A stretch of DNA of 64,000 nucleotides from Thermogutta terrifontis (GTDB lineage: Bacteria > Planctomycetota > Planctomycetia > Pirellulales > Thermoguttaceae): positions 2,563,206 through 2,627,205 of the forward strand of contig NZ_CP018477.1 in assembly GCF_002277955.1 (NCBI RefSeq). Direction: 5' to 3'. This document shows, piece after piece, positions 14,289 to 60,032 of this stretch. The notes beneath the pieces are model-generated. The model did not search any database. It saw only the letters and a program-made list of their open reading frames with translations, and was not told where the DNA came from. Both the position numbers and the translations under genes were made by a program. Numbering within the stretch: the first letter of the stretch is position 1; each line of letters opens with the position of its first letter.

Positions 14289-14311
14289 TTTTGTTTTCGT
14301 GAGGTCAAGCC

Positions 14312-15466: not shown

Positions 15467-15594
15467 CATGGGAAAGTTGCCTTCCCCGCAGTGGGAAATC
15501 TCATGGAGTTCTCCTGGGGGTGTTGTCGCGGCTCGGGACAAAAGCGGTGTTTTGTCAGAACGCTGTTGCACAACAGAAAGAATCGGCGAAAGAA

Positions 15595-15628
15595 ATCGGC
15601 CGCGCCGGTGGGGGCCAGCGCGGCCGAT
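15595..15628. promoter_or_regulatory. GC-rich 11-base-pair hairpin
   Basis: Perfect arms 15595-15605 (atcggccgcgc) and 15618-15628 with a 12-base loop. It lies between the FG-GAP gene and the rpsI end, and six bases before the strong ribosome site of the small ORF at 15647. Read on the minus strand it is followed by ATTTCTTT, so it may be the rpsI transcription terminator. Confidence 0.55.
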
Positions 15629-15646
15629 CGTCGAAGGAGGTGGGCT

Positions 15647-15784
15647 ATGCATTTATACTCTACGCCGCAATCAGCGGAAGGTTCGACAATTGAGACAATT
15701 TTTTTGCGGGAATTTTGGAAGGCCGAATTGGAGGAAATCGAAATTCACCGCTTGGAGAATTGGGTTCCGCGGCGGGCGCCGTGA
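15647..15784 (+). CDS. Possible 45-residue small protein
   Basis: Short frame with ATG 15647 placed six bases after a consensus AAGGAGG (15634-15640), one of the strongest ribosome sites in the window. The product (MHLYSTPQSAEGSTIETIFL followed by REFWKAELEEIEIHRLENWV and PRRAP) is acidic in the middle and could form an amphipathic helix. It has no signal or cysteine motif and I do not recognise it. Its last 40 bases overlap the 3' end of rpsI on the opposite strand. The evidence is the ribosome site and plausible composition only. Confidence 0.45.
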   Translation: MHLYSTPQSAEGSTIETIFLREFWKAELEEIEIHRLENWVPRRAP

Positions 15785-16167
15785 AGCCCGTACTTCTTCC
15801 GTTCCTTCTTCCGGCCATCTGCAGTCAAAAGGCCAGCGTCACGGAGAGTTTGCCTCAATTCGGGATCCATCCGCACGAGGGCTCGGGCGATGGCCAGCTT
15901 GCAGGCATCCGCCTGCCCCGAAATGCCGCCGCCTGCCACGCGGAGAATCACATCCACACTTTGGAGACGGCCGGTTAGCTCCAGCGGCTGGAGCACCCGC
16001 TTCTGATACAGTTCATTGGGAAAGTAGTCCTCAAGGGCCCGGCCATTAACAGCGATTCGCCCCTGTCCCGGACGAATCCTTGCCCGAGCCACCGCCGTCG
16101 CTTTGCGACGTCCGGTTCCCAAAAAATCGTTCGTCCCCTTACCCTCAATGATGACCTTTTTCACCAT
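15745..16167 (-). CDS. rpsI: 30S ribosomal protein S9
   Basis: Small-subunit ribosomal protein S9. The 140-residue product has the typical GTGRRKATAVARARIRPGQG start, VAGGGISGQADACKLAIARAL centre, and a basic C-terminal tail ending ARRGTQFSKR, which in S9 reaches the P-site tRNA. It follows rplM in the usual L13-S9 order with a 65-base spacer. A 16-base inverted repeat (16171-16186) directly precedes the ATG and places the AGG of the ribosome site in its loop. Confidence 0.97.
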   Translation of the reverse strand: MVKKVIIEGKGTNDFLGTGRRKATAVARARIRPGQGRIAVNGRALEDYFPNELYQKRVLQPLELTGRLQSVDVILRVAGGGISGQADACKLAIARALVRMDPELRQTLRDAGLLTADGRKKERKKYGLHGARRGTQFSKR

Positions 16168-16170
16168 ATT

Positions 16171-16186
16171 ACTTGACCTGTCAAGT
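16171..16186 (-). promoter_or_regulatory. Inverted repeat over the rpsI ribosome-binding site
   Basis: ACTTGACctGTCAAGT has perfect 7-base arms three bases before the rpsI start codon. In the mRNA the loop would expose CAGG, the only Shine-Dalgarno-like sequence. It may present the ribosome site or bind a regulator. Confidence 0.4.
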
Positions 16187-16232
16187 TAATTCCTCAAGCA
16201 AGCGGATGTGGCCTCTTTGACACACGAAAACG

Positions 16233-16721
16233 TCACACCGGCAAAAACCGACGGAAGCGCCCTTTTTCCTTGACGCCGAGTTCAATCGGCGTCGGCTGCT
16301 GAGCCTGGTGGGGATGTTCCGGCCCAGCGTAGATCTTGAGCTTGCGCAGCATTTTCTTGGCAAGCCGATTTTTCGGCAGCATCCGACGAACTGCCTCGTA
16401 GAGGATCATTTCGGGCTTCCTTTCCTTCCGCTCGGCTGCCGTTTCGGACCGCAGGCCAGGGAACCCGGTGTACCAGGTGTACTCTTTCTGTTCCCACTTC
16501 TTGCCCGTGAATACCACTTTCTCGGCATTCGTCACGATGACATAGTCCCCCGTATCCACGTGCGGGGTGTACGTCGGCCGATGTTTCCCCATTAAAATGG
16601 TGGCAATATCGGATGCCAAACGGCCGACCACCTTGTCGGTGGCATCCACCACGTACCACTTCGGTTTCAATGAACCTGGTTTCGCCAAATAGCTTTTTAT
16701 CACGGCCAATTTCTTCCTCAT
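16233..16721 (-). CDS. rplM: 50S ribosomal protein L13
   Basis: Large-subunit ribosomal protein L13, first gene of the L13-S9 pair. The 162-residue product has KWYVVDATDKVVGRLASDIA, TYTPHVDTGDYVIVTNAEKV and the GMLPKN-like segment MLPKNRLAKKMLRKLKIYAG of the family. A GTG 18 bases upstream extends the frame, but ATG 16721 has GGGGGG five bases before it and gives the expected N-terminus. A hairpin (arms 16729-16736/16752-16759) overlaps the ribosome-site region. Other bacteria control this operon by L13 binding its own leader, so autoregulation is plausible. Confidence 0.96.
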   Translation of the reverse strand: MRKKLAVIKSYLAKPGSLKPKWYVVDATDKVVGRLASDIATILMGKHRPTYTPHVDTGDYVIVTNAEKVVFTGKKWEQKEYTWYTGFPGLRSETAAERKERKPEMILYEAVRRMLPKNRLAKKMLRKLKIYAGPEHPHQAQQPTPIELGVKEKGRFRRFLPV

Positions 16722-44994: not shown

Positions 44995-45320
44995 CGATCC
45001 GGCCCATTGCGTGGTACGCGCCACTTCCCCTCGCGGAACGATCCAAGCGGCTTCGCGTTGAGATAACGACGGTCAATAAACCTGAATTAGCATCAGGAGT
45101 TTGCCCGAGGAAGAATAATCCCGGGCAGTTTTCTGATTTACATTATTAAGTGCAAGTGCTTGCCCGAGATGGATAGTGGACTCATCAAGGAACTCGTCCT
45201 GCGACAATCCTGCGTCGCGTGGGTTCTTATCCGAACAATTCGATCTTCCCGTTTCGGAATCAATGCAATTTTCAGCGGACGCAAGCAGGCAAACATTCGA
45301 GTGTTCATGGAGAAGCTTCA
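44995..45320. other. Intergenic region between bfr and the TPR/FG-GAP gene
   Basis: No gene is supported. It must hold the promoter of the TPR/FG-GAP gene. The base mix here is more AT-rich than the flanks. I see no clear terminator after bfr. Confidence 0.35.
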
Positions 45321-48300
45321 ATGAGTTGGCAAATGTCTCTCTCCCGAATCTATGTCGCGTTTGGCTGCTGCACAATGGTGGCAAATCTTTTTTTGATGGC
45401 GCCTCCTGGATGGGCGCAGGCCACATCGCCGTCCCCGCAACAGACGACCGATATCGTCTACCGCGCACTTGCGGCATTTAACAAAGGATGTGCTCTTCTC
45501 GAACAATATGAATACTCGGCAGCAAGTAAGCAATTCGAAGCCGTATTAAAGGAATTTCCGCAATGGACAGCCGCGAAATTCAACCTTGGGCTCGCCTATC
45601 TGAATATGATGGAGGATGCCGGGGGGAAAGAAATCATCAACCAGGCCGAGCGATTGTTTCAGGAAGTTGCCAGGGAGAATCCACAACTCATTCATGCCTG
45701 GTACTGCTTGGGTCTTTATTACGAACATGTAGGGCAAAGAGAAAAGGCGCTGGAAGCCTTTCAAAAAGCATATCAACTCGACCCTCAAGATCCTCACATT
45801 TGCCTCAAACTGGCAGAAGCTTACCTCGCGATGCAGCAAAACGAAAAAGCGATAGAACTCCTCGAACGGGCAGTCAACCTCGATCCGGGGTTCGTTTCCG
45901 CCATTTATCGACTGGCCCTGCAATACCAGCGTTTGGGAAAGCGAGATGCGGCTTCAAAATTATTCGAAAGGTTCCGCGCGCTCAATCAAGCGGAAGTCGC
46001 AGGTGGAAGTTTTACTGTACGAAAAATATATGGCTCGGCGGGAAAATACTACTATGCACTGGGACCTGACATGTTGCCGATTGTCCGACAGCTGGACACG
46101 GACGCCCACGCCGCAACTCCGGTTTTTGACCCCGAATCACGAGAACTCGTAAAAATGGGGCCTCCGTGGCGAGCAGGTCAAATATCTATCGAAATCGGCG
46201 GTGTCGCCGTGGCGGACCTGAATAAAGATGGTATTTTGGATCTGGTTTTAAGCGGTGTCACAAATGACCATGCTACTCAGGTTTTATTTGGAGAAAAAAA
46301 CGAGCATTTTCAACCCGGTGAAATATTGGCCACCCAAGCCATATGTGCGGCCGTCGGAGACGTTGACAACGATGGCGATGTGGATATCTGGATAGGCGGT
46401 GCAGGGTTCGTTCGTTTGATGGAAAACGATGGCACCGGCCATTTCAAACCGTTCTCGGGAACAGCTGCCTCCATGACCGGGGACTTCACTGCCTTACACG
46501 TGCGATTGCTGGATATCGACAGCGACGGGGATTTGGATCTCTATGCCAGCCGGTTTAATTCGAATGGTGAAGCGCTCGCGCCTTTGCTTTTGATCAACAA
46601 CCGCGACGGAACTTTCGAGGAAAAGGCTGCTGCCTGGGGACTGGAAACACCGCAATTCTCCGCAGTCGCGACGAGCTGGCTCGACATTGATAACGATCGT
46701 GATCTCGACTTAATTCTCGCGTCAGGAAAAGGTTCACCTGTCGTATGGCTCAACGATCGGGCCGGGGCATTTCGGATTGTCAAAGGCTCGGATGCAGGTC
46801 TTGACGTCCCCGGTGTTTCCGGCCTGACTACCGGGGATGTCAATTGTGATGGCAGGCCGGATCTTGTCGTACTCAGTAGCGGCCGGGTGAGGTTGTTCCT
46901 CAACCAAGGTGCATGCCGCTTTCGGGAGGACGAAGCCTTCGCACGGCAGTTTGGAAAGCTGGGCGGGACAATCGCACAACTTGCCGATATCGATAATGAC
47001 GGAGATGCGGATCTTTTTATTGCGGACACATATTTGCCGAATGGTGCCCGGCAACCCGTTATCCTCCTGAATTCCTGGCCAAAACCGGGGTTCGTGAACC
47101 TGTGCCAAGAAGACCCGCGATTTCTCTTTTGCGGCGTCCGCAACCAGGGAAACACCGCTGGAGTCCTCGCTGATTTCGATGGCGACGGTGGGCTCGATGT
47201 TCTTATTGCGCCGTTGAGCACCAGCAGCGTGTGGTTTAGAAATTGCGGTTCCCGAGGAAACTGGCTTAGCCTTGATCTGGCCGGAACCCGTTACACAGAT
47301 CAGAAGTCTCGCTCCAACGAATCCGCCATCGGTGCACGCGTGGAGGTTCGCAGCGGGCAAATCTTTCAGCAGTGGGATGTGGGGCAAATCGCCGGCAGTA
47401 CTTGCTGGGCACCTCTTCGGTTACACTTTGGCCTTGGGCACCAGCAGGAAGTCGAATGGCTCCGGATCATTTGGCCGGATGCGGTCCTCCAATCCGAGGT
47501 CTCAATCAAGGCCAACCAGGTGGCCAGTATTGGTGAAGTCCCGCGCAAAACATCTTCCTGTCCACATTTATTTGTATGGAATGGTGACCACTTCGAATTT
47601 GTATCTGATTTCGGCGGGAAGGGTGGGCTCGGATACTTGATTCGGCCGGGAATTTACGCCCAACCGTATCCCGTTGAATTTGTTCCCCTGCCTCGCATAA
47701 AGCACAATAATGATCCAATTGTCTGTAAAATCATCGAGCCATTGGAAGAAGTTGTGTATTTCGATCACGCTTCTCTCATCGCGGTTGATCACCCGGCGGG
47801 AACATTCGTTCTCCCCAACGAGATGATGCCGGTTTCGGTGACTGATATCCCCGAGGAGATTCTCTGTTTTGGCGAAGAACTGGATCCCATTGCTGCGACA
47901 AACGATCGTGGTCAGGATGTGCTTACCCTTCTGAAGAGAATTGATCGCGACTTTGTGGGGCCCACCGAGCAGGACAAACGCTTCGTTGGCTATGCGAAGG
48001 AGCATTCACTGGTGCTTCAATTTCCGGACACCCTGGATCGATGGATGGAGTTGGGAAGGCGGATCTTCTTTATTGGGCATGGTTGGGTGGAATACAGCTA
48101 CTCCCAGACAAATTTCGCCGCCGCGCAGGCGGGTCTTACTCTCCGAGCTCCCACTTTTGAAGTCTTTCGCGATGGAAAATGGATAGAACTCATCAGGGAA
48201 GCGGGATATCCGGCTGGTGTAAACCATTGGATGACGCTGGAATTGACGCATTTTCTGCAAAAAGGAGATCGCAGGCTCCGTATAAAAACAAATATGGACC

Positions 48301-48857
48301 TTTACTGGGACCGGATTTTTCTTGCAGCAACAATCGACGGTGCGATCCAGCAATCAGAGATACACCCGCGCCTCGCTAATCTGACATATCGCGGCTTTCC
48401 GCGAGAATACTCGCCGGATGGAAAACAACCCACACTTTTAGACTATGAGAGTATAGATCTTACTCTTCCCTGGAAATCTATGCCGGGATTTTACACGCGT
48501 TTTGGTGATGTGACAGAACTTGTCATGAAGCGTGATGACGCATTTGTCATTATGGGCCCCGGCGAGGAACTCACGCTTCAATTCGATGTTGGTCAACTCC
48601 CCGAACCACCCGCGGGGTATGTACGTTCATGGATCCTGAAAACAGACAGTTTCTGCAAGGATATGGATATTCATACCGCGGCAGGAGATCAAGTGGAGCC
48701 TCTGCCCTTTCACACGATGCGATCTTATCCGTACAGCTTGCCGGAGAAGTTTCCCGAAACGCCGGCGACTATCAGGGCGAGAACAATTTATAACGTACGA
48801 TGGATGGGATCGCGAAACGATTGGCCATCGAATTCTATTTCGAAGAGTGAAAGATAG
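45321..48857 (+). CDS. Exported TPR/FG-GAP/UnbV protein with large C-terminal domain
   Basis: A 1178-residue secreted protein. ATG 45321 has GGAG upstream and starts a signal peptide (ISRIYVAFGC...APPGWAQ type, residues 6-32). TPR repeats follow (about 45-220; AWYCLGLYYEHVGQREKALE), then FG-GAP repeats (about 245-650; GDVDNDGDVD, LDIDSDGDLD, ADIDNDGDAD), then an ASPIC/UnbV-like domain at about 670-745 (IGARVEVRSGQIFQ). The last ~420 residues begin CPHLFVWNGDHFEFVSDFGG, a stretch seen in some CRTAC1-type proteins, and have no assigned function. It is convergent with the minus-strand cluster 49018-60032 and shares the FG-GAP/UnbV theme with it. Confidence 0.85.
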   Translation: MSWQMSLSRIYVAFGCCTMVANLFLMAPPGWAQATSPSPQQTTDIVYRALAAFNKGCALLEQYEYSAASKQFEAVLKEFPQWTAAKFNLGLAYLNMMEDAGGKEIINQAERLFQEVARENPQLIHAWYCLGLYYEHVGQREKALEAFQKAYQLDPQDPHICLKLAEAYLAMQQNEKAIELLERAVNLDPGFVSAIYRLALQYQRLGKRDAASKLFERFRALNQAEVAGGSFTVRKIYGSAGKYYYALGPDMLPIVRQLDTDAHAATPVFDPESRELVKMGPPWRAGQISIEIGGVAVADLNKDGILDLVLSGVTNDHATQVLFGEKNEHFQPGEILATQAICAAVGDVDNDGDVDIWIGGAGFVRLMENDGTGHFKPFSGTAASMTGDFTALHVRLLDIDSDGDLDLYASRFNSNGEALAPLLLINNRDGTFEEKAAAWGLETPQFSAVATSWLDIDNDRDLDLILASGKGSPVVWLNDRAGAFRIVKGSDAGLDVPGVSGLTTGDVNCDGRPDLVVLSSGRVRLFLNQGACRFREDEAFARQFGKLGGTIAQLADIDNDGDADLFIADTYLPNGARQPVILLNSWPKPGFVNLCQEDPRFLFCGVRNQGNTAGVLADFDGDGGLDVLIAPLSTSSVWFRNCGSRGNWLSLDLAGTRYTDQKSRSNESAIGARVEVRSGQIFQQWDVGQIAGSTCWAPLRLHFGLGHQQEVEWLRIIWPDAVLQSEVSIKANQVASIGEVPRKTSSCPHLFVWNGDHFEFVSDFGGKGGLGYLIRPGIYAQPYPVEFVPLPRIKHNNDPIVCKIIEPLEEVVYFDHASLIAVDHPAGTFVLPNEMMPVSVTDIPEEILCFGEELDPIAATNDRGQDVLTLLKRIDRDFVGPTEQDKRFVGYAKEHSLVLQFPDTLDRWMELGRRIFFIGHGWVEYSYSQTNFAAAQAGLTLRAPTFEVFRDGKWIELIREAGYPAGVNHWMTLELTHFLQKGDRRLRIKTNMDLYWDRIFLAATIDGAIQQSEIHPRLANLTYRGFPREYSPDGKQPTLLDYESIDLTLPWKSMPGFYTRFGDVTELVMKRDDAFVIMGPGEELTLQFDVGQLPEPPAGYVRSWILKTDSFCKDMDIHTAAGDQVEPLPFHTMRSYPYSLPEKFPETPATIRARTIYNVRWMGSRNDWPSNSISKSER

Positions 48858-49017: not shown

Positions 49018-50361
49018 CTAACGCGATGACGGCACTTCCGGGATGATCTTCCCGTTGCGAATAACCCCAGGCACAACCGAGCATTTATTCGCGTTGACCC
49101 TATCCCATTCAATGGTCCCGAAAACACCTCGATAGGGTGAAATGGCGAGCAGGCTGTTGTAGATCTCAACACGGTCGATGTTATCACGACCTCCTTGTGC
49201 GGCTCGCGCAACGGCATGAAGAAGCATACGAACGGCATCATAGGTGAGCGCGACAGCATAGTCGGGTTCGACAGCGAATTCTTTCTGAAATGTCTCTCGG
49301 AAGTCCTGTGGTATATGGCAAGAATCCGGAACAAGACATGGACAAATGATCCCTTCGGCGTCAAGACCGAGTGATTTGAGAGCGTCAACTCGGGAAACTC
49401 GCGCGTCGCACACAATTTGCACAGTGGATGTGTGGCGACGGATCTCGCGGATGATGGAAACGAGGAGAGGCCGGGGGGCACTTACAATCAGCCACTCGGG
49501 CGAGTTCTCGAGCGATTCCCAGACCGCTTTTGTAACGGCTTGCTCCTCTCGCGGGAGAATAATCACCGAATTGACCTGGCAACCGTGGCGGAGAAGCCAT
49601 TTGTTCAATTCACGCCAAAACCATTGAGAATCATGGTCACTTCCGAGAAGAACGGCAATCCGGCGGGGACAACTGCCGGCAATTCGTTGCGCCAGGACCG
49701 GCGCGATCAGATGGTCGCCCGGCGCAAGCGCGAAGATCCACGGCACACCTGCCAAATTAGTCGTCTTATCGGTGGCCACAGGTGAAAGCAAGGGCAAATG
49801 CACTTTGGCAACGATCGTTTCCGCGAGGTGTGTTGCTTCACCGTCGGTCCCGCCGACAACTCCGACGACGTTTTCCCGAAAAATCAATTCCGCAAGGGCG
49901 GATGCACCATCCGACCACGGCGAGTCCTTGATGAGAGGGACGAGGCGGCATGGCGGCAGCTTGTCGTGAAGCTCTCTTTGTGCATCATCAAGACCTCGTT
50001 GAGCCGCCCACCACAGACTCGCCATGCCTAAGTCATCGCTCTTCGACGGACCAAAGTATCCGATAATGACCTCTTTCCTTAAGGCTATCCCCGAACTTCG
50101 AAGGACAGGCGTGGAATTAATTGGATCGCGTGCCTTAAAAAAAGGATGGATTGAGCGATCAAACGGATAAATAATTCCGCCATTCGGGCCGTCCGCAATA
50201 AGCTCAGCGGTTGGGGTTCCCCAAGCGATCAATATAGCCACAATCGCGAAAAAAACCACGCACGCTCTGCCCATAAATTTGGACAAGCGTGGTCTTATAA
50301 GCACAGAGCATAACAACTGTGGCATGGGAACCGGTAGTCGCAGCCACCAAGGCTTAATCAA
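49018..50361 (-). CDS. Type-1 periplasmic ligand-binding protein (LivK-like)
   Basis: Substrate-binding-protein fold of the Peripla_BP_6/branched-chain amino acid receptor group. The 447-residue product has a hydrophobic signal segment (CVVFFAIVAILIAWGTPTAE, about residues 34-53), then KEVIIGYFGPSKSDDLGMAS, VVGVVGGTDGEATHLAETIV, PLLSPVATDKTTN and YAVALTYDAVRMLLHAVARA, the family's typical blocks. The longest start is TTG 50361, four bases from the upstream stop; ATG 50274 would give a cleaner signal. It is the last gene of the cluster. No permease or ATPase gene adjoins it. Confidence 0.85.
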   Translation of the reverse strand: MIKPWWLRLPVPMPQLLCSVLIRPRLSKFMGRACVVFFAIVAILIAWGTPTAELIADGPNGGIIYPFDRSIHPFFKARDPINSTPVLRSSGIALRKEVIIGYFGPSKSDDLGMASLWWAAQRGLDDAQRELHDKLPPCRLVPLIKDSPWSDGASALAELIFRENVVGVVGGTDGEATHLAETIVAKVHLPLLSPVATDKTTNLAGVPWIFALAPGDHLIAPVLAQRIAGSCPRRIAVLLGSDHDSQWFWRELNKWLLRHGCQVNSVIILPREEQAVTKAVWESLENSPEWLIVSAPRPLLVSIIREIRRHTSTVQIVCDARVSRVDALKSLGLDAEGIICPCLVPDSCHIPQDFRETFQKEFAVEPDYAVALTYDAVRMLLHAVARAAQGGRDNIDRVEIYNSLLAISPYRGVFGTIEWDRVNANKCSVVPGVIRNGKIIPEVPSSR

Positions 50362-50364
50362 GAG

Positions 50365-51861
50365 TTAATTCTGTGAAACTTGAACAGGCCGAGCGGGCAC
50401 CTCTTTCGGCAGGCCGAGGTCTTCTCTGGAGTAAAACTTCCACTGATTGTTTTCTCGGATCGCAAGATAAGCATCACTTGCCCGGTCTAAAACCGCCGTC
50501 AGCATTATTTCTCCGGTAACCCCATGCCACGGATCCCGCCGCGTGGCCAGCACATCCCGTATTTTGGCACGATTGAGTCCGGCCAGTTGGATCGCCCAGA
50601 TCAACATTTGAGTCCCATCGTAGGCATGCGCGGCGTAGGTTTCTGGCTCACAACCGAATCGCGCTTTAAATTTCTGCCGAAATTCTTCCAACCGGGAGTC
50701 ATCACGCGCGGGATTCCAGGGCGAAGCACAAACCACGCCCTCGGCATTTTTGCCAGCGATTTTCACAAAATCATCAAGCAAACAGCGGTCGCACGCAAAA
50801 AAGGGCTGTTTCATTCCCATCTCGCGCATCTGGTTGAGGATGCGGGCACCGTCTTCCGCGTCGCCCCAGTGAACAACCGCTTCCACCTGAGCGTCAGCAA
50901 GTCGTTGCAACTCCATCGAGAAGTCCTGTTGCCCCACAAAGTACGCCATCTCGATAGGCACAGGCCGTTCCAGGCGACGACTTGCATCACGAAATTCGCG
51001 CACCCCGAAACGGCCATAGCGGTTGCTCGCTCGAATGATGCCGACGCGACTGAGGCCGAGCTTCTTATAGATATAATCCGCTAGAATATAACACTGACGC
51101 CGGTCATCCGCAATAACTCGCAGAACCCATGGAATATTCGTCTCAATGAATGTCGGGTCTGTATCACCTGTATTGACCACCGGTACCTCCGCCTTGAGAG
51201 CGACGCGAATTGCAATATGACTGTTCGCTCCGTCGATCGTGCCAATGATCGCCCAAACATTCTCTATGTAGGCCAAGCGAATAATCTCATCTCCAGAAGA
51301 CCCCCACAGGCCGTTGTCATTGCGAACAACAAGTTCGAATGGTATTTTCCGCCGCCAGTAGCCGCCTGCGGCGTTGGCTTCCTCGATTGCAAGCTGGCAA
51401 CCACGGAGCATCATTTGTCCCAGATTCTCCTCATGGCTTTTTCCACCCGTTGCCACCGACACCGTAGGCTCGATCGGCCCCAAAAAGCCGATCTTAACAG
51501 TATCCACGTGTTCTGGCTCAGGAATACCCCGTCCCGGTCCTGTGTATTCCATCTGTACGAGGAAATACCTTTTAAAAGGTTGGGTCAGCCGTCCGAATGG
51601 ATCCAATTCTTTGGGTGTGTCGGCATAAACGGGGTCCACACGCAGGGGGAGTTGCGGCACTTGATAGGCCCCCGCACGATTGATGCGTTCGAGGATGCTC
51701 AACGTATAGTCATCCACAGGAAATGGCAGGTCTTCCTGATTTGGAAGAGCCCGGTTGTCTGCGCCCACTGTCGGGGCGGAATCGGATGCCGCAGCCAAAC
51801 CCATCTCCCAGATGAACATCGTGACTAAAACTAAGCCAGTAATAATGGTAACCCGACACAT
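50365..51861 (-). CDS. Second type-1 periplasmic ligand-binding protein
   Basis: A 498-residue exported protein of the same fold as its downstream neighbour. The signal peptide is MCRVTIITGLVLVTMFIWEM followed by GLAAA; GGAGAGAGGG lies before the ATG. A ~90-residue N-terminal extension (FPVDDYTLSILERINRAGAY) precedes the binding domain at about 120-460 (VKIGFLGPIEPTVSVATGGK; LAIEEANAAGGYWRRKIPFE; YAAHAYDGTQMLIWAIQLAG). It is about 50 residues longer than the first. The 3-base gap to the next gene implies co-translation. Two divergent binding proteins in one operon suggest two ligands or a heterodimeric sensor. Confidence 0.86.
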   Translation of the reverse strand: MCRVTIITGLVLVTMFIWEMGLAAASDSAPTVGADNRALPNQEDLPFPVDDYTLSILERINRAGAYQVPQLPLRVDPVYADTPKELDPFGRLTQPFKRYFLVQMEYTGPGRGIPEPEHVDTVKIGFLGPIEPTVSVATGGKSHEENLGQMMLRGCQLAIEEANAAGGYWRRKIPFELVVRNDNGLWGSSGDEIIRLAYIENVWAIIGTIDGANSHIAIRVALKAEVPVVNTGDTDPTFIETNIPWVLRVIADDRRQCYILADYIYKKLGLSRVGIIRASNRYGRFGVREFRDASRRLERPVPIEMAYFVGQQDFSMELQRLADAQVEAVVHWGDAEDGARILNQMREMGMKQPFFACDRCLLDDFVKIAGKNAEGVVCASPWNPARDDSRLEEFRQKFKARFGCEPETYAAHAYDGTQMLIWAIQLAGLNRAKIRDVLATRRDPWHGVTGEIMLTAVLDRASDAYLAIRENNQWKFYSREDLGLPKEVPARPVQVSQN

Positions 51862-51903: not shown

Positions 51904-53139
51904 TTACTTTTCGCTCGTTGAGTTTAATTTATTAAGCCATTCTGGTTGCCGCCTGACTCCCGGGTAGTAGCCCCGCCCGATACCATGCGAAAGTCCCTTT
52001 GCAGTTCCTACCCATACGTCATCGCCATCAAAGTCCATTGCAATTATGAAGTTATGTGCGATACTCGTTTCAAGTGGAACTTCTTTAATTTTTCGTCCTT
52101 GACGGAAGACCTCCGCGCGTCCGCTCGAGTCATCACCGTTGCGGTAATAGGAGACGTAGGTATCGGTGGCGTAGTCAGCGACGACTCCGAGTCCCTTGTC
52201 TGTGCACATCCAACACTCCTGTCCGGAGCGAGCCCGAAGCGCGTTGGTGAAGTCGCTGGGAAGACCCGTCTCATGAGCATAAAACCCACGCCAGTATCGG
52301 CCGTCGTATCGACACTGCCCGAAGTAGGTGGATACCCAAAGCGCTCCGCCTACATAGTTTGCCGCGGTGGTAATGACATGAATGATTCCATCATCGCGGA
52401 AGAGGTCGATCTCCATTTCCCGATCAGGATCGAGATAAACCTTCCATTTTTCCGTCGGTACGTCGAATTCCAGGCAGCCACTTCCCCACACGGCAAGGAA
52501 AACCTTATTCACCTCCGGTGAGTAAAACACGTTGTAATTCCAGATTTCTTCCATTGGTGCGTTTTTCTCGGTGAAAATTGTCCATTCTTTAGTCGTCGTA
52601 TTATAGCGGCTTGCTCCGGCAGTTGTGGCGCACCATACGTTATCGTGTTCGACCGCTATCGCATAGACGACATTATTGACTAGTCCGCTGTTCAACTGGT
52701 GAAAATGGTCAAATCGCCCGCCGGACAGGCGAGCCACGCCACCTCCGAAGAGAGCCAGCCACACGTCACCGGTTTGGGGATCCACGTCAATTCCAGTTAC
52801 GGCACGCCAGGGAAGGCCATCTTTCTCCCTCCACACCGTGAATTTCCGCGTCTTCTTGTCATAACACGCCAGGCCGTTTTCCGTACCAACCCAGACCTTC
52901 TCCCCTGCACAACGCACGGCGAAAATATGGTCGTTGGGAAGTCCATCCTCTTCCGTAAAGTTTTCCCACTCCGTGTACACATACGGTAAATCATCGTCTG
53001 TAAGATTATCGACACTCTGCCCAAACGCGAGCTTGGGCACCTGTGCACCTGAAGCTTTTTCACCAGAAGTGGTTTCGGCCCATGCAGTGCCGGTCGCGAG
53101 TAGCCATGCCATTACCCACAGAAATACTGCACGCCACAT
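51904..53139 (-). CDS. Exported Reg_prop-type beta-propeller protein
   Basis: A 411-residue secreted propeller. The signal peptide is MWRAVFLWVMAWLLATGTAW followed by AE; GAGG lies six bases before the ATG. Repeats of the two-component-regulator-propeller type are visible: WENFTEEDGLPNDHIFAVRC, VWVGTENGLACYDKKTRKFT, VWREKDGLPWRAVTGIDVDP, VWLALFGGGVARLS, DVWVGTAKGLSHG. Such propellers are normally the sensor part of hybrid histidine kinases, but this protein ends after the propeller and has no transmembrane helix or kinase. Confidence 0.84.
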   Translation of the reverse strand: MWRAVFLWVMAWLLATGTAWAETTSGEKASGAQVPKLAFGQSVDNLTDDDLPYVYTEWENFTEEDGLPNDHIFAVRCAGEKVWVGTENGLACYDKKTRKFTVWREKDGLPWRAVTGIDVDPQTGDVWLALFGGGVARLSGGRFDHFHQLNSGLVNNVVYAIAVEHDNVWCATTAGASRYNTTTKEWTIFTEKNAPMEEIWNYNVFYSPEVNKVFLAVWGSGCLEFDVPTEKWKVYLDPDREMEIDLFRDDGIIHVITTAANYVGGALWVSTYFGQCRYDGRYWRGFYAHETGLPSDFTNALRARSGQECWMCTDKGLGVVADYATDTYVSYYRNGDDSSGRAEVFRQGRKIKEVPLETSIAHNFIIAMDFDGDDVWVGTAKGLSHGIGRGYYPGVRRQPEWLNKLNSTSEK

Positions 53140-53163: not shown

Positions 53164-56076
53164 TCACAATGTTTTCAAATACTCAATAAGATCGTTCAAT
53201 TGATCCTTCGTAAGGTCGTTCGTCACACCGTGGGTGTCGTACGGGTTGTGGACAGTCCAAATTTCTTCCAGCGTCGGGGCGATTCCGTTGTGAAGATAGG
53301 GAGCGGAGTTATAGATGTTGAGAAGCTGTGGCGTATCAAACACACCATGCCGATCCAGCTTCATTTTGGTGCCCACATCGTGACTTCGCCGATCTGTGTA
53401 CAGCGGCGGTGGGTGGCAGGTGACACAACGATTTTCCGGTGGGATCAGGCGCCCATCATTCGTATAAATCCTCTCGAAAATAGCCCGACCGCGACGCTGT
53501 GCGGGAGTGAGCGGCGCCCCAACAGGTCGATGCCGATTGGGAGCGAGCGGGATAGTGCAGATATAATAATCCAGGGCCGTTAATTCCTCCGGAGTAAAAG
53601 GCTGAATGCGGGTAAAGAATACGGCAAGGCGGGTTCCGCATTGACGGGAAAGTGTCGGGTTGATTCCCTCCCATTTGAATGGGGATGTGTCAAGAATTCC
53701 CCTCAGAGTTCGGTTGTCGACGGGGTTGACCCCAATATCATCTTCAATATCGTACGTCAATCCTTCAACATGTCCGTCGGGATGGCAGCTCGCACAGGAA
53801 AACTGTCGATGGAATGTATTTTTCGCGCTGTGGAAAATGCGTTCCCCAAGCCGTTCGCGTGTGATAATCTTCGGACCACCCAGGTCAATTGTTTTCACGA
53901 GCTCCAAAGACTGAACGTCAATGATCCCTATGCTGTCATCGAGAGAATTCGCCACAAGGAGCAGCCCGCGTTTCTTATCGAGTGCAAGCCCCCGTGGACA
54001 GTGACCGACATCGATCTGCTTCAGAACGAACTCTGTGGCAGGCCCCAGGTGGTTGGGAAGAATTGATTCTCGAGTTTCGTCCGGATATGAACGAACGACC
54101 GCTTCCAGCTTCTTGAGATCAACAACCGCCACGCGGCTGTTACCCGCACTGGTGACAAACGCCTGGAGACCGTCCGGGCTGATGACAACGTCATGCGGAT
54201 CAGGAAAACATTCGCCTGGCTCATCGAGCAGGACTTGGTCAATGCGACCGTCCGGCCAGAGAATTCCCAGCCCGTTGGTGATCGTCCAGCCTTGAAGCAG
54301 TCGCGTGATTGGAATCACGTTCTTATGCCGGGCCAGGGTAAAAAGTGCAAATCGCTGCTTCGGATCCCAGGCCACTCCACGGAGGCCATTAGCCCCATGC
54401 GCCACCGGCCGATTCACGACTTGGACTGTGCTTGTGTCCAGTATGGTCAGCTCAGTCTGAGCTTCCGTGCGGAACGGCACAAATCGCGAGTAGATATTGG
54501 TAACCACAAGCCACTTTCCATCCGGTGAAAGACTCAAAGACCAAGGACCGCGTCCCGCGCTCAATGTCTTGACAACCTTAAATGACTTCAAGTCAACGAC
54601 GGATATATCATCCGAAAGAAAATTACAGACATACAAAAAGCGCCCCTGTGAATCGATCAATAGTCCGTGCGGCTCATCCCCGACAGAAATCGTTCGCACC
54701 ACTTTTTTTGTACGAATATCGACGACCGATACTGAATCATCCAGCCGGTTACTTACAAATGCGTAGAGGCCATCGGGCGTGAACGCTACGTCATGGGGTT
54801 GACGCCCCACGGGGATTTCGCCGCGAACCGTCATGGTGTCCAAATCGAGTAAAGCCACTGTATTTGAAGCCTCGCAGGCCACCAACGCAATGTCAAAGTT
54901 CGGCGATACGGCAATATTCACCGGCGTCTTATAAACCACTTCCGAATTCTGTGTGGAACGATCAGGCTGGGAAGGATGAGCAATTTTGGCCATCATTTGC
55001 TCGAAATCGAATGGTTTATCCGGGCTTGATTGATGGCATCCGAGGCATGTTTCACGGGTGGGTTTCCTAAGCGATCCGTCCTGCTGAGACAGATTACGCC
55101 GCCGGGACTCGACATGCTGACTTCCTGGGCCGTGACAGGCCTCGCATCCAACACCCTCGAACAGGTTGAAGCTCTCGCGAATTGCAGCAGCCGGTACATG
55201 ATAGGCCGTGGAATGACATTTCAAACATTGCGTCGCCGTCCGTGGATCCCCCTCCACCCCCCGCTTTTTCGCCAATTGCTGCCCTTTGGTCGAACCCAAG
55301 CACGAGTACGCCCCGGCGTGTTTACTTTCCAGCCACTTGCTGAACTGCCATCCGGAACGAGCACCGTCGTGGCACTCTGCACACACTGCAGATCCCACAA
55401 GGGCCGACTGCGTCTTGTCTACGGGCGGAGCGGGTCTTTCCAGTGGCGAGAGCGACGCATTAGATGGAACCGGATGTTTAATCGATTGCCAACCTTTGGC
55501 AATATCGAGGCCGGATTTACCCAGCACGCGCTGGTGGGATTCCTTCGGAGCGTGACAATATATACAACCTTCCAGCCCGGGCATGCGCAGGCCGCGTTCC
55601 ATGGCCTTCTGCCGATCCCGCATAATAGCAGCATCCGCATACTCACTTCCGGGTCCGTGGCATTTCTCGCACTGAACACCCTCGCGAACTGAAAATGTCG
55701 GATCCAGCTCCCAGGGTTCTGCCTCTGCTGCCGTTGCATGGCAACCCAGACATATCCGTGACTGATCGGGTTCCTCGGCCACTCCACTCAGTCGTGCAAT
55801 CTGCCTGGCCTCTGGCTTGTGCAGCGCCGCATACGCCCGGGCATGGGCAGATTGTGCCCAAATACCGCATTGATCGCCCAAAGATTCTCCTTCGTGACAC
55901 TCTGCACATACCTTCACACCGACATAAACAGGCTGAAAATTAGGCGGTGCGGCTTTTGAATCACGGGCCGCCAAAACCGAAACGCTAATCCCGATTAAGA
56001 TCCACGGTATCCGCCTCACCCAACTTGACCCCTTACCGGAGGATCGCAAAGTGCGTCTAAATCCCGCTGTACTCAT
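53164..56076 (-). CDS. Exported ten-haem cytochrome c with YVTN propeller and peroxidase-like C-terminus
   Basis: A 970-residue secreted electron-transfer protein. After a signal segment (WILIGISVSVLAA), CxxCH motifs begin at about residues 57, 109, 136, 171, 232, 284, 311, 344, 761 and 884. The first eight form two tetrahaem units with near-identical spacing (52, 27, 35 versus 52, 27, 33), including CEKCHGPGSE versus CEACHGPGSQ, in cytochrome c554 style. A YVTN-type beta-propeller covers about 365-745 (VVDIRTKKVVRTISVGDEPH). The C-terminus with two haems resembles dihaem cytochrome c peroxidase/MauG ends. GTG 56085 is a possible longer start; ATG 56076 is preferred. Confidence 0.88.
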   Translation of the reverse strand: MSTAGFRRTLRSSGKGSSWVRRIPWILIGISVSVLAARDSKAAPPNFQPVYVGVKVCAECHEGESLGDQCGIWAQSAHARAYAALHKPEARQIARLSGVAEEPDQSRICLGCHATAAEAEPWELDPTFSVREGVQCEKCHGPGSEYADAAIMRDRQKAMERGLRMPGLEGCIYCHAPKESHQRVLGKSGLDIAKGWQSIKHPVPSNASLSPLERPAPPVDKTQSALVGSAVCAECHDGARSGWQFSKWLESKHAGAYSCLGSTKGQQLAKKRGVEGDPRTATQCLKCHSTAYHVPAAAIRESFNLFEGVGCEACHGPGSQHVESRRRNLSQQDGSLRKPTRETCLGCHQSSPDKPFDFEQMMAKIAHPSQPDRSTQNSEVVYKTPVNIAVSPNFDIALVACEASNTVALLDLDTMTVRGEIPVGRQPHDVAFTPDGLYAFVSNRLDDSVSVVDIRTKKVVRTISVGDEPHGLLIDSQGRFLYVCNFLSDDISVVDLKSFKVVKTLSAGRGPWSLSLSPDGKWLVVTNIYSRFVPFRTEAQTELTILDTSTVQVVNRPVAHGANGLRGVAWDPKQRFALFTLARHKNVIPITRLLQGWTITNGLGILWPDGRIDQVLLDEPGECFPDPHDVVISPDGLQAFVTSAGNSRVAVVDLKKLEAVVRSYPDETRESILPNHLGPATEFVLKQIDVGHCPRGLALDKKRGLLLVANSLDDSIGIIDVQSLELVKTIDLGGPKIITRERLGERIFHSAKNTFHRQFSCASCHPDGHVEGLTYDIEDDIGVNPVDNRTLRGILDTSPFKWEGINPTLSRQCGTRLAVFFTRIQPFTPEELTALDYYICTIPLAPNRHRPVGAPLTPAQRRGRAIFERIYTNDGRLIPPENRCVTCHPPPLYTDRRSHDVGTKMKLDRHGVFDTPQLLNIYNSAPYLHNGIAPTLEEIWTVHNPYDTHGVTNDLTKDQLNDLIEYLKTL

Positions 56077-56201
56077 TATCGCCACGTCCGACGTTCACGT
56101 TTAAAATGCCTACCAACTACTCGCATGCTAAACTCACGATTTATTCGCAATCCCTGCTGCGATGACCTATACAAGCTTATCCTAAAACGCACGACAGTCC
56201 T

Positions 56202-57881
56202 TTAGTCAGGTTCAACAACTTTGAGTACCTGGTTCGCCTTGACGTTCTCCAAACGTGTTTTTTTACCGTTTGGCCAGCGGATTTCGACCCAGTCGGCAAC
56301 GGTGTTGTCTCCCGACCCAAAATGAACCCGCGGATCCATCTGCGACAGGTATCCACGGGTCGGAATAGCATCGCGGAACTGAATCAGCGACCCGGCGCGG
56401 ACTGTGACCCTGGCACCGATCGCATCCGTTTTTCCATTAGAGCGCTTGGGCCAAACCATAAGCCAATTCTTCCGGTTTCCCCCGTCGTTGCGTAAAAGGA
56501 CTGGCCTATCATTGAGATTAATTATGAGGAGGTCTAGGTCACCATCATTATCAAAGTCACCACATGCCACAGCCCGTCCTACATGCTTTTCGTGGAAATA
56601 TGCACCGGATTGATGCGACACGTCGACGAATTGTCGATTTCCCACATTCCTCAAGAGCACATCCTCTTCCGGATATTCATGGTGGGCATCCCCGTTTGCC
56701 ACAAAAATATCCAACCAGCCATCATTGTCGTAGTCGAAAATGACCGATCCCCAGCCGGTGTATTGTCCACACACAGCGGCGATTCGTGAACGTGCCGTCC
56801 AATCCTCAAAATATTCACCGAAATTGATGAGCAAGCAGCTATAATCCATATCTGGAATGAAAAGATCCAGCAAACCATCGTGGTCAATATCGCCAAAGTC
56901 CGGCCCCATACTGGATACACCCTGCCCCGCCTCTCCAAAGGCAAGGCCCCTGGGTAGGGCTTCGTTGCTGAACTTCCCGCCTCCCAAATTCAGGAAGAAA
57001 TCGTTTGCCATCGCATCGTTAGTAACATAAATATCGAGCAGGCCATCGTTATTTACGTCGGCCACCGTCGCGCTCATGCCACGCCCCTCCGGATTCCATA
57101 CTCCTGCTTCTTTGGTAACATCGGTAAAAGTGCCGTCCCCATTATTTCGATATAGACAATCCGGTTGTCCCTCATAACTCAGCGGGCCTGGATAGCCGTC
57201 CGCCTTATAAAAAGCACGAAAGGCCCCCAGATCATATTGCAGATAGTTACACACATAGACGTCCAGCAGTCCGTCGCCGTTGTAATCAAACCAGGGTGCG
57301 GACAGGCTCCATCGGGGATCATCCAGGCCAGATTGGCGGGAAACATCGGTAAATGTTCCATCCCCGTTATTATGGTAGAGAACATTTGGACCATAATTGA
57401 GGACATAAAGGTCAACAAATCCATCATTATCGTAATCTGCTGCTGAACATCCGCTTCCGAAATGCGTGTCGCCGACTCCCGCCTGATCCGTCACATCCGT
57501 GAATGTTCCGTCTCCGTTGTTTCGATACAGAGCGTTGCGAAGCTGCCCGCGTAAATGACGGCCTCGATTACTGCTGACGCCGGGAGTCCAAGCACCGTTG
57601 ACAAAGTAAATATCCATCAGGCCATCATTGTTGTAATCAAAGAACAGCGCCCCGCTGCCTGTCCCTTCGACGATGTTGCTGAGTTCTTCATCGCCAAAAC
57701 TGTGTTTAAAGGTGATGCCTGCCTCCCGCGTCACATCCGTGAAGGTTGGCAGGCTCTGAGCAAGAGACGGCACGCTGAGCGTGGTCCAGTAAAGGGACAC
57801 TGAAGCCAGAAACGCTAGACGCATCCACCGGGCAGGTGCGTTTGTGTATAGAAATCTGTATAGAAATGATAACGTGTTCAT
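56202..57881 (-). CDS. Exported CRTAC1-like FG-GAP/UnbV protein
   Basis: A 559-residue secreted protein. The signal segment is RLAFLASVSLYWTTLSVPSL, ending SLAQ. FDYNNDGLMDIYFVNGAWTP, ADYDNDGFVDLYVLNYGPNV, FDYNGDGLLDVYVCNYLQYD, ADVNNDGLLDIYVTND and GDFDNDGDLDLLIINLNDRP are successive calcium-binding FG-GAP/VCBS loops, each commonly followed by NNGDGTFTDVT. An ASPIC/UnbV-type domain ends the protein (IGARVTVRAGSLIQFRDAIP; VEIRWPNGKKTRLENVKANQ). It resembles the C-terminal half of the TPR protein at 45321 without the TPR part. It shares the cluster with the multihaem proteins. Confidence 0.88.
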   Translation of the reverse strand: MNTLSFLYRFLYTNAPARWMRLAFLASVSLYWTTLSVPSLAQSLPTFTDVTREAGITFKHSFGDEELSNIVEGTGSGALFFDYNNDGLMDIYFVNGAWTPGVSSNRGRHLRGQLRNALYRNNGDGTFTDVTDQAGVGDTHFGSGCSAADYDNDGFVDLYVLNYGPNVLYHNNGDGTFTDVSRQSGLDDPRWSLSAPWFDYNGDGLLDVYVCNYLQYDLGAFRAFYKADGYPGPLSYEGQPDCLYRNNGDGTFTDVTKEAGVWNPEGRGMSATVADVNNDGLLDIYVTNDAMANDFFLNLGGGKFSNEALPRGLAFGEAGQGVSSMGPDFGDIDHDGLLDLFIPDMDYSCLLINFGEYFEDWTARSRIAAVCGQYTGWGSVIFDYDNDGWLDIFVANGDAHHEYPEEDVLLRNVGNRQFVDVSHQSGAYFHEKHVGRAVACGDFDNDGDLDLLIINLNDRPVLLRNDGGNRKNWLMVWPKRSNGKTDAIGARVTVRAGSLIQFRDAIPTRGYLSQMDPRVHFGSGDNTVADWVEIRWPNGKKTRLENVKANQVLKVVEPD

Positions 57882-57926: not shown

Positions 57927-60032
57927 TTACTGTATTGCAAATGGATGTTGACGATCATACAAAGCGCCAGTGTCAATCCACTCAATCATTATTTGCACAT
58001 CTTTTTGGGATAAGGGTTGCACCTCAGGGTCGTTGGGCCAGGGTTTATACGGTCGGGAAGGCCATTCTCCATCCCACGGTTTTGCCAGGTTTTTAGACAT
58101 CACGTGCCAGACAAGCGAACTTAAACGAGCTGCGCCGGGCACCACGTAAACGGGCGCGGCATCGGCAGCCTCCGCCGAAGACGGAGTATCAGCAGAGCGA
58201 ACCAGCTGCGCGTATGAAAACGCTGGCGACGCTGACACGGGACCAGGATGAGCCGGATCCGCCGATGGAGCCAGCCACGGCCTTGTTCGCGGCGGAGTAT
58301 GGCAATTCAAACAGGACCGTTGAATAATAGGCCAAACGTCGTGTACAAAGTCGGGCACAGTGAGGGAAGCCGAGGGCTCAATCCGTGGTCGATCTTCCCA
58401 CAGGGCGTCAGCCATTCTGTTAAACGGCACACGTTCCGGATCTTCATGACAGCCAATACACCCTTGATGAACGCCGCCCTTGACCCAAAACCATCCGGAG
58501 GTTCGCACATTGATCCCCTGTTCGTCAATCAGTTGGAGTGCCAAGGGAACGTCGGAAGGGACTTCCACCTGGAAAGATCCGTCCGGATATATCGGAATTT
58601 CACCCAGCACGCGGAATGGAAAACGCGGCTGCCGATTGGCGGCGGTTTTCGGATCGGTGATAGCCTGCAAAACTCGCAACTTTTTGATCGAGCCTTTCGG
58701 AAATCCCTGATCTCCCAGGTCGTTGTCGTAAACGCTCAAGCAATAGAGAGTGCCGCAAGACGCGTTGTCATCAACCCCCGAGGATCGGCCGTCGGGAAGG
58801 AGTCGGGGAGCAACTGGCTTGGCCAAGAGTTCGTGGTAACGGGGATCATCGAAGAGCGGCGTCCATGCGCGTGCTTCTAAATCAAAAATACCAAGCGCAA
58901 ACGAACTCCCGCCGGTTCGGGGGCGCCGTGAAACGAGCAGACGCCCATCTGGGAGAGCGCACGGCGAGTGATAGACCCACGCCCGATCTTCGGTAAGGCG
59001 TTGATATGTCCGTAAAGGACGTCTCAAATCGACACATGCAATCTGTCCTGCCCCATCCGGTGTCAATTCGTCGCTTTCTATGAAGACCAATTTTCCGAGC
59101 AGGCCGTGGGGAATGACGGTTGGCATAAGCTTGTACCTGGCTCCGATGCCTGGTAAAAAATTCGCAGGGTCCGTCCCGTCTGTGTTGACCGCCAGGAGGT
59201 CCAAACGCACCTGTGGATCGTGCGGGTATGACGAGCGAAAACTGGCAAAAACAATCCTGCCATCAGGAAGCAGTGTCCCGGGCAGATCGGGTGCATGACT
59301 AACCGTAAGACGTCGAAAATGTGACCCATCCATGCGACAGGAGAACAGAGACGAAACCGCTGTGCCTGTGAGTGCCGATGCTTCTTCGCTCAACACTCGA
59401 AAAAGCGTGATTTGAAACCAGGGAAGCGGGGCATCGAGAATATACTGAGTGGATTGGTAGCTGGGAGATCGACAGTCGCGTGCCTCACGTGTGATTTGCC
59501 GCAGAGTTCGCGTTTCCAGATCGAGCTCATAAATGTTCCAGGGTGCATTAGCCTCAGGTTTACCGGCGAGGAGCAGCTTTTTTCCGTCAAAGAACACATC
59601 TGCTTCGGCCGTAGCAAAAAACGAGGGTAGCAGAATTTCCGGCTCGCGACCCGGCTGAAGAAGCACGAGGCGACATGGCCGATTTACGCCGACCAGAGTC
59701 CCGGGGTACGGTGTGGCGATCAGGTCCCCGCTTCCCTCAACTGCCACCTGTGTCAGTACAATAGGACAAGGGAGATTATCCACCGAAGGGGGGGCTGCCC
59801 TCAGTTGCCCAACTGTGATAACAAAGACGGCCACCCCCGATATCAAAGACCAGCACGGCAAAGGCAAGACACGTGTCTGAAAGATGTGCTGTCGCTTCCA
59901 GATTGGCCTGACCCAACCAGAAATCATGACAAAAGAAACCCAGTTAACGAACAGAGCGTTGACCATCGTGAATGGACTGAGAGTAAAAAGCGATTTTACA
60001 GCCGGACCTTCTTGATTGCAACAAATTGGCAC
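57927..60032 (-). CDS. HzsA-related exported dihaem protein
   Basis: A 701-residue secreted protein that resembles proteins annotated as HzsA-related, after the alpha subunit of hydrazine synthase. A hydrophobic segment (CWSLISGVAVFVITVGQLRA, about residues 60-79) acts as signal. The middle is a TolB-like propeller (LPDGRIVFASFRSSYPHDPQ). Then comes the characteristic IPIYPDGSFQVEVPSDVPLA, GWFWVKGGVHQGCIGCHEDP (haem site at 525) and CLNCH at 574. Start is uncertain: GTG 60032 has AGG upstream, whereas ATG 59927 gives a more compact signal. It is the first gene of the cluster. Hydrazine synthesis itself is not implied. Confidence 0.78.
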   Translation of the reverse strand: MPICCNQEGPAVKSLFTLSPFTMVNALFVNWVSFVMISGWVRPIWKRQHIFQTRVLPLPCWSLISGVAVFVITVGQLRAAPPSVDNLPCPIVLTQVAVEGSGDLIATPYPGTLVGVNRPCRLVLLQPGREPEILLPSFFATAEADVFFDGKKLLLAGKPEANAPWNIYELDLETRTLRQITREARDCRSPSYQSTQYILDAPLPWFQITLFRVLSEEASALTGTAVSSLFSCRMDGSHFRRLTVSHAPDLPGTLLPDGRIVFASFRSSYPHDPQVRLDLLAVNTDGTDPANFLPGIGARYKLMPTVIPHGLLGKLVFIESDELTPDGAGQIACVDLRRPLRTYQRLTEDRAWVYHSPCALPDGRLLVSRRPRTGGSSFALGIFDLEARAWTPLFDDPRYHELLAKPVAPRLLPDGRSSGVDDNASCGTLYCLSVYDNDLGDQGFPKGSIKKLRVLQAITDPKTAANRQPRFPFRVLGEIPIYPDGSFQVEVPSDVPLALQLIDEQGINVRTSGWFWVKGGVHQGCIGCHEDPERVPFNRMADALWEDRPRIEPSASLTVPDFVHDVWPIIQRSCLNCHTPPRTRPWLAPSADPAHPGPVSASPAFSYAQLVRSADTPSSAEAADAAPVYVVPGAARLSSLVWHVMSKNLAKPWDGEWPSRPYKPWPNDPEVQPLSQKDVQIMIEWIDTGALYDRQHPFAIQ

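Follow-up and report, generated by a model that had tools for sequence, protein, structure and literature searches.

We analyzed a window of 64,000 nucleotides from the complete genome of Thermogutta terrifontis, and all positions given for this locus refer to that window. A gene encoding a ten-haem fusion protein was found on the minus strand, a strand that the original prediction had not given. Its reading frame starts with GTG at 56085 or ATG at 56076 and stops at 53164, giving 970 residues when counted from the ATG (minus strand, 56076..53164). The encoded protein consists of a likely signal peptide, two c554 units, a propeller similar to the beta subunit of hydrazine synthase (HZS), and a di-haem end similar to HZS gamma, in that order. 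The CxxCH motifs start at residues 57, 109, 136, and 171, at 232, 284, 311, and 344, and at 761 and 884 (n = 10). The first eight of these positions, and the gaps of 52-27-35 and 52-27-33 within the two sets of four, had been given in the original prediction and were exact on recount of the translation.

The ten-haem gene lies within an operon that was found to be conserved in Planctomycetota, Acidobacteriota, and Latescibacterota, and of which our view is incomplete in Elusimicrobiota. An HZS-alpha-like gene is located two genes upstream on the same strand, and relatives almost always have the alpha-like haem gene near the beta-gamma gene. The remaining members encode a CRTAC1-type protein, a Reg_prop propeller protein, and two LivK-type substrate-binding proteins (Table 1). 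On the opposite strand to the operon, positions 45219-48857 of the window encode a large protein with TPR, FG-GAP, and UnbV_ASPIC domains. The operon of Thermogutta MAG-77 (L007) also has a gene for such a protein next to it, and similar proteins are encoded upstream of some Acidobacteriota operons.

Table 1 Features of the ten-haem gene and its operon in T. terrifontis (window positions; residues counted from ATG 56076).
Feature	Position	Strand	Evidence
Ten-haem fusion protein	53164..56085	minus	Open reading frame; ten CxxCH; Pfam, NCBIfam, and PDB matches
Likely Sec signal peptide, residues about 1-42	55951..56076	minus	Read by eye: basic stretch, then IPWILIGISVSVLAARDSKA
c554 unit 1, residues 50-180, four CxxCH	55537..55929	minus	PF13435; 1bvb 4.7e-9; present in six-haem relatives
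c554 unit 2, residues 225-355, four CxxCH	55012..55404	minus	PF13435; 1bvb 2.8e-5; missing in L011 and L012
HZS-beta-like seven-bladed propeller, residues 380-735	53872..54939	minus	5c2v_B 3.8e-37; fold match; pLDDT mostly about 85-95
HZS-gamma-like di-haem module, residues 736-970	53167..53871	minus	5c2v_C 2.6e-21; NF052341 3.6e-24
Gamma haem I motif CASCH, residues 761-765	53782..53796	minus	Motif in 63/63 aligned proteins, HZS included
Trp802 in place of HZS gamma His144	53671..53673	minus	Column comparison with three anammox HZS
Cys813, equivalent of gamma Cys165	53638..53640	minus	Column comparison and PDB alignment
Gamma haem II motif CVTCH, residues 884-888	53413..53427	minus	CxxCH motif scan
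HZS-alpha-like protein: propeller, HZS_alpha middle domain, two CxxCH	57927..60032	minus	PF18582 3e-16; NF052339 3.6e-30; 5c2v_A 1.7e-24
CRTAC1-type FG-GAP/UnbV_ASPIC protein, between alpha-like and beta-gamma-like genes	56202..57881	minus	Pfam; same place in relatives
Reg_prop beta-propeller protein, directly downstream of ten-haem gene	51904..53139	minus	PF07494; kept beside beta-gamma in relatives
LivK-type substrate-binding protein 1 (Peripla_BP_6)	50365..51861	minus	1.1e-39; conserved in relatives
LivK-type substrate-binding protein 2 (Peripla_BP_6)	49018..50361	minus	1.1e-16; conserved in relatives

We compared the two N-terminal units directly. A local alignment of residues 50-180 with residues 225-355 was mostly gap-free and scored 251, while 500 shuffled controls in which every CxxCH was held fixed scored 58.8 +/- 11.7 with a maximum of 111 (z about 16). 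Because the motifs were fixed in the shuffles and the real score was far above them, the similarity of the units does not come from the motifs alone, and a chance CxxCH likeness between the halves was ruled out. Both halves also matched the Pfam family Cytochrome_C554 (PF13435; 5.5e-31, score 107.8 against a cut-off of 20.8 bits, in two stretches), and each unit searched singly against the PDB returned cytochrome c554 (1bvb). The proposed tandem duplication of a c554-like module is thus a true one, and the motif-keeping shuffles together with the PF13435 matches show the halves to be homologous.

The propeller and the two-haem end seen in the original prediction are real, and together they correspond to a known pair of proteins, HZS beta and HZS gamma. 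In a sequence search of the PDB, residues 384-719 matched HZS beta end to end (5c2v_B) and residues 742-970 matched HZS gamma (5c2v_C). The NCBIfam model of the beta-gamma fusion matched at 1.3e-57, with a score of 195 against a curated cut-off of 1250. Structure prediction was confident for the propeller, whose predicted fold resembles HZS beta: in a fold search of the whole PDB the best match was 5c2v_B (E 5e-31; TM-score 0.90 on the target), with other propellers ranking behind. In the haem domains the pLDDT of the AlphaFold model, made from an alignment of ten sequences only, was mostly below 60, and the model is good for the propeller only. Taken alone, the conclusion that the protein is related to HZS is in our judgement virtually certain.

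Weak matches to MauG, RoxA, MbnH, and CCP were also found at the C-terminus, and a Trp is conserved at the position where CCP and MauG have one (PMC12758564). These would suit a di-haem peroxidase of the CCP/MauG type mounted on an octahaem wire and clearing periplasmic peroxide. However, the CCP_MauG Pfam score was 22.3, below the cut-off of 25.6 bits, and HZS beta and gamma match far better. A peroxidase would also have no need for an alpha-like haem subunit or two binding proteins, and it leaves the Rid and DAHP synthase genes in the operons of relatives, described below, unexplained. We consider this explanation unlikely.

To our knowledge, HZS long seemed to be without relatives, and a de novo birth had been proposed for it. 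In December 2025, distant HZS homologues outside anammox bacteria were described (PMC12758564). Clade I of that study combines two cytochrome c554 domains with fused beta-gamma, and its members include T. terrifontis, Aquisphaera giovannonii, Novipirellula artificiosorum, Syntrophobacter fumaroxidans, and Paludibaculum fermentans; T. terrifontis was placed in clades I and IV. The ten-haem locus fits clade I, and its gene order (alpha-like, CRTAC1, beta-gamma) is the clade I order. Since the fusion has been published for the same species, the architecture is already known and is not new. The original prediction is therefore supported in its c554-like tandem duplication and in the fusion of this part with a di-haem end and a propeller of the YVTN type, but not in taking the combination as undescribed (PMC12758564). 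The description gives no function for it, concluding only that residues critical for HZS are lost. To this description we add the Reg_prop neighbor, the Rid/chorismatase-like and DAHP synthase genes in the operons of relatives, and the single origin of the octahaem fusion.

Cys165 of HZS gamma forms a third covalent bond to its haem. We compared residue columns in an alignment of 63 proteins, using three anammox HZS as the reference. The gamma haem I motif was present in all 63, and Cys165 was kept in the T. terrifontis protein and in the entire clade of six- and ten-haem proteins. His144 was replaced by Trp in every protein on the clade I-III side of the tree, and Asp168 was found in no homologue of the alignment. 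In the alpha-like protein, the haem ligand Tyr591 as well as Cys303 and His772 were unmatched in a weak alignment to 5c2v_A; the same alpha losses have been reported across the clade (PMC12758564).

These results bear on whether the complex could be a true hydrazine synthase, with a host that performs anammox or makes hydrazine. Homologues of alpha, beta, and gamma are encoded together at the locus, gamma Cys165 is kept, and other hzs-like Phycisphaerae have been proposed as possible anammox bacteria (PMC10732223). Against this stand the Trp at His144, the loss of Asp168, the unmatched alpha residues, and NCBIfam scores far under the curated cut-offs, both for the beta-gamma fusion and for the alpha-like protein (104.5 against 800). 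Furthermore, no HAO/HDH-type gene (PF13447) was found in the complete T. terrifontis genome of 4.81 Mb, while two anammox genomes, searched in the same way as a positive control, returned 12 and 15 match places. The published analysis likewise concludes against hydrazine synthesis (PMC12758564). Residues, scores, and the missing HAO/HDH rule this explanation out as far as we can judge, and we regard it as extremely improbable. By its sequence, the ten-haem protein is a non-anammox homologue of HZS and is itself no HZS.

Cytochrome c554 accepts electrons in hydroxylamine metabolism. This would favor a nitrogen-oxide reductase that acts on NO, hydroxylamine, or nitrite with HZS-like chemistry and another end product, as would the conversion of NO into hydroxylamine by HZS gamma (PMC12758564) and the reduction of nitrate to ammonium by T. 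terrifontis (PMC5673643). Yet the residues of the gamma haem I pocket are changed, T. terrifontis already has NrfAH (PMC5673643), and no recurring nitrogen-oxide genes were found in the operons surveyed. Such a reductase seems to us rather improbable.

We constructed a tree of the beta-gamma core from our own sample, which is separate from the alignment of PMC12758564. All six- and ten-haem proteins were found to form one clade (support 100/100) with members from Planctomycetota and Acidobacteriota. A fragment at a contig end (L119) also fell within it. Judging from this tree, the octahaem part has a single origin. Within the clade, c554 units 1 and 2 formed separate groups across species. This indicates that the duplication predates the divergence of these species, and a recent duplication within Thermogutta was ruled out on the same grounds. 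Of the two units, the six-haem proteins L011 and L012 contain only the first, pointing to loss of unit 2 on one or two occasions. It has been suggested that the HZS ancestor may have carried ten haems (PMC12758564). The confinement of the octahaem part to one derived clade, under midpoint rooting only, argues against such an ancestor.

In Latescibacterota, a stand-alone c554-type gene (L015:10806-11390) with three CxxCH and one CxxxCH directly follows a two-haem beta-gamma gene. A gene for a nitrate-reductase-delta-like chaperone of the TorD family (L015:4782-5543) is located upstream of the same operon. Across the relatives, c554 units are gained and lost while the beta-gamma core stays, and forms without the octahaem part persist. 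Variable units, a constant core, and the separate Latescibacterota gene are what one would expect if electron-transfer units had been added to an enzyme core, and we read the c554 part as a probable addition of this kind. The many haems, the FG-GAP and Reg_prop neighbors, and the poor matches to characterized enzymes other than HZS could instead suggest a multihaem protein at the cell surface that would serve as a structural element or an electron store and carry out no small-molecule chemistry itself. However, among the beta-gamma relatives the gamma di-haem module, together with its C-terminus, was the most strongly conserved part, and the nearly constant presence of the alpha-like gene and the persistence of forms without octahaem part also speak against it. 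We give this explanation little weight.

We then considered which genes accompany the HZS-like operons of relatives. Neighboring genes were called as open reading frames with phmmer matches, and the counts below are of loci with both Reg_prop and substrate-binding protein (SBP) genes in view. They are loci rather than independent events, many being from related Acidobacteriota. A Rid-family gene was located near 25 of 26 loci encoding two to four haems and near 13 of 17 encoding six or ten; overall, a Rid gene with a chorismatase signature was found at 38/43 loci. A DAHP synthase gene was located near 16/26 of the two-to-four-haem loci, whose proteins lack the octahaem part, and near 0/17 of the six/ten-haem loci. 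The typical order in Acidobacteriota is alpha, CRTAC1, beta-gamma, Reg_prop, Rid, DAHP synthase, SBP, SBP. Three Planctomycetota genomes from a single family (L057, L059, and L060) have the DAHP synthase gene just upstream. HZS-like operons with the signature-bearing Rid gene, many of them also with DAHP synthase, include L113-L118, L120-L130, L132-L137, L139, and others. At the ten-haem locus of T. terrifontis, Rid and DAHP synthase genes are absent, as is any chorismatase-type gene from the 64-kb window. The Rid gene is likewise missing from the operon in Thermogutta MAG-77 (L007), L054, and L112. With no Rid gene at the T. terrifontis locus and no DAHP synthase gene at six/ten-haem loci, the chorismate link is made only through relatives.

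The Rid proteins of these operons carry SGTAS in 43/44 cases and CxxxLxxExE (of the CRxxLLVEIE type) in 43/44, and ordinary Rid proteins differ at the SGTAS site (SGQ...). The Cys of the second motif occupies the position changed to Ser in 5a3k relative to the chorismatase entry 5ag3, and we take it to be the catalytic Cys327 of Hyg5. The operon Rid proteins are mostly single-domain and below the TIGR04444 cut-off, and generic Rid models match them at least as well; the single-domain proteins may not be chorismatases. Both DAHP synthases that were scanned scored above a curated cut-off. Where an operon has a DAHP synthase of its own, as phenazine clusters do, the enzyme usually raises shikimate-pathway flow to supply a special product. 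Some LivK-type binding proteins bind aromatic acids.

T. terrifontis also encodes paralogues elsewhere. The HZS_alpha domain has five matches in its genome (L036-L040), four of them outside the window. A second beta-gamma-like gene, without c554 units, is located at G000:C1:3.63 Mb and fits clade IV of PMC12758564. There, the c554-free beta-gamma-like gene and an alpha-like gene 4 kb downstream (L071:6945-9296 and 13429-16539) have a glycoside-hydrolase-2 gene between them. A two-domain chorismatase relative (L070:7661-8944, G000:C1 about 3.475 Mb; TIGR04444 1.2e-49, below the cut-off) adjoins a gene for a paralogous HZS-alpha-like protein of 1034 aa.

Taken together, we tentatively propose that the complex is a non-anammox HZS homologue, octahaem-wired and periplasmic, that works on a chorismate-derived small molecule; we put the chance that this holds as a whole at somewhat short of even. 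The ten-haem protein would be the beta-gamma subunit and would probably pair with the HZS-alpha-like protein encoded two genes upstream, in a complex that the c-type haems and the signal peptide read by eye would place in the periplasm. The eight N-terminal c554 haems would pass electrons into or out of the gamma di-haem center, in which a CCP/MauG-like Trp replaces His144. As in HZS, the alpha-like and gamma-like haem sites might act successively on a single small molecule. This putative molecule would be chorismate-derived rather than hydrazine; DAHP synthase and a Rid/chorismatase-like enzyme would produce it in the cytoplasm, and the LivK-type proteins would bind it in the periplasm.

A wider version of this proposal, possible but doubtful in our view, is that the non-anammox homologues of clades I-III are periplasmic oxidoreductases dedicated to a chorismate-derived molecule, which a dedicated DAHP synthase and a chorismatase-like Rid enzyme would help to make, and that the ten-haem form is a wired version that came later. 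If so, redox chemistry linked to chorismate would be the source from which HZS was recruited. The main text of PMC12758564 does not use the words RidA, L-PSP, chorism, and DAHP, and a search by title or abstract gave no papers linking hydrazine synthase with chorism-. The operon link to DAHP synthase and chorismatase-like proteins is, as far as we know, the first concrete substrate hypothesis for HZS relatives, and it is cheap to test. In addition, the tree speaks against an HZS ancestor with ten haems.

Finally, we compared the T. terrifontis system with known ones. Like cytochrome c554 of Nitrosomonas (1bvb), each N-terminal unit has four CxxCH, the CHGPG motif, the W....HA region, and the Pfam family, but here two copies stand in tandem and are fused to an enzyme core. 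With anammox HZS (5c2v/5c2w) the locus shares homologues of alpha, beta, and gamma, the gamma haem I, haem II, and Cys165, and a beta-gamma fusion as in Scalindua. It differs from anammox HZS in its eight extra haems, in lacking His144, Asp168, the alpha active-site residues, and HAO/HDH-type partners in the genome, and in having the alpha-like gene upstream rather than downstream. The di-haem enzymes of the CCP/MauG type resemble the protein in two C-terminal CxxCH and a Trp at the equivalent place (PMC12758564), whereas the Thermogutta protein is below the family cut-off and has a propeller and an alpha-like partner. The SGTAS and CRxxLLVEIE signature of the FkbO/Hyg5/XanB2 chorismatases is found in the operon Rid proteins of relatives, although most of these copies are single-domain and under the TIGR04444 cut-off. 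The clade I homologues (PMC12758564) likewise have two c554 domains with fused beta-gamma, the same alpha-like and CRTAC1 neighbors, the Trp in place of His144, and the retained Cys165, and the protein differs from them in nothing essential.
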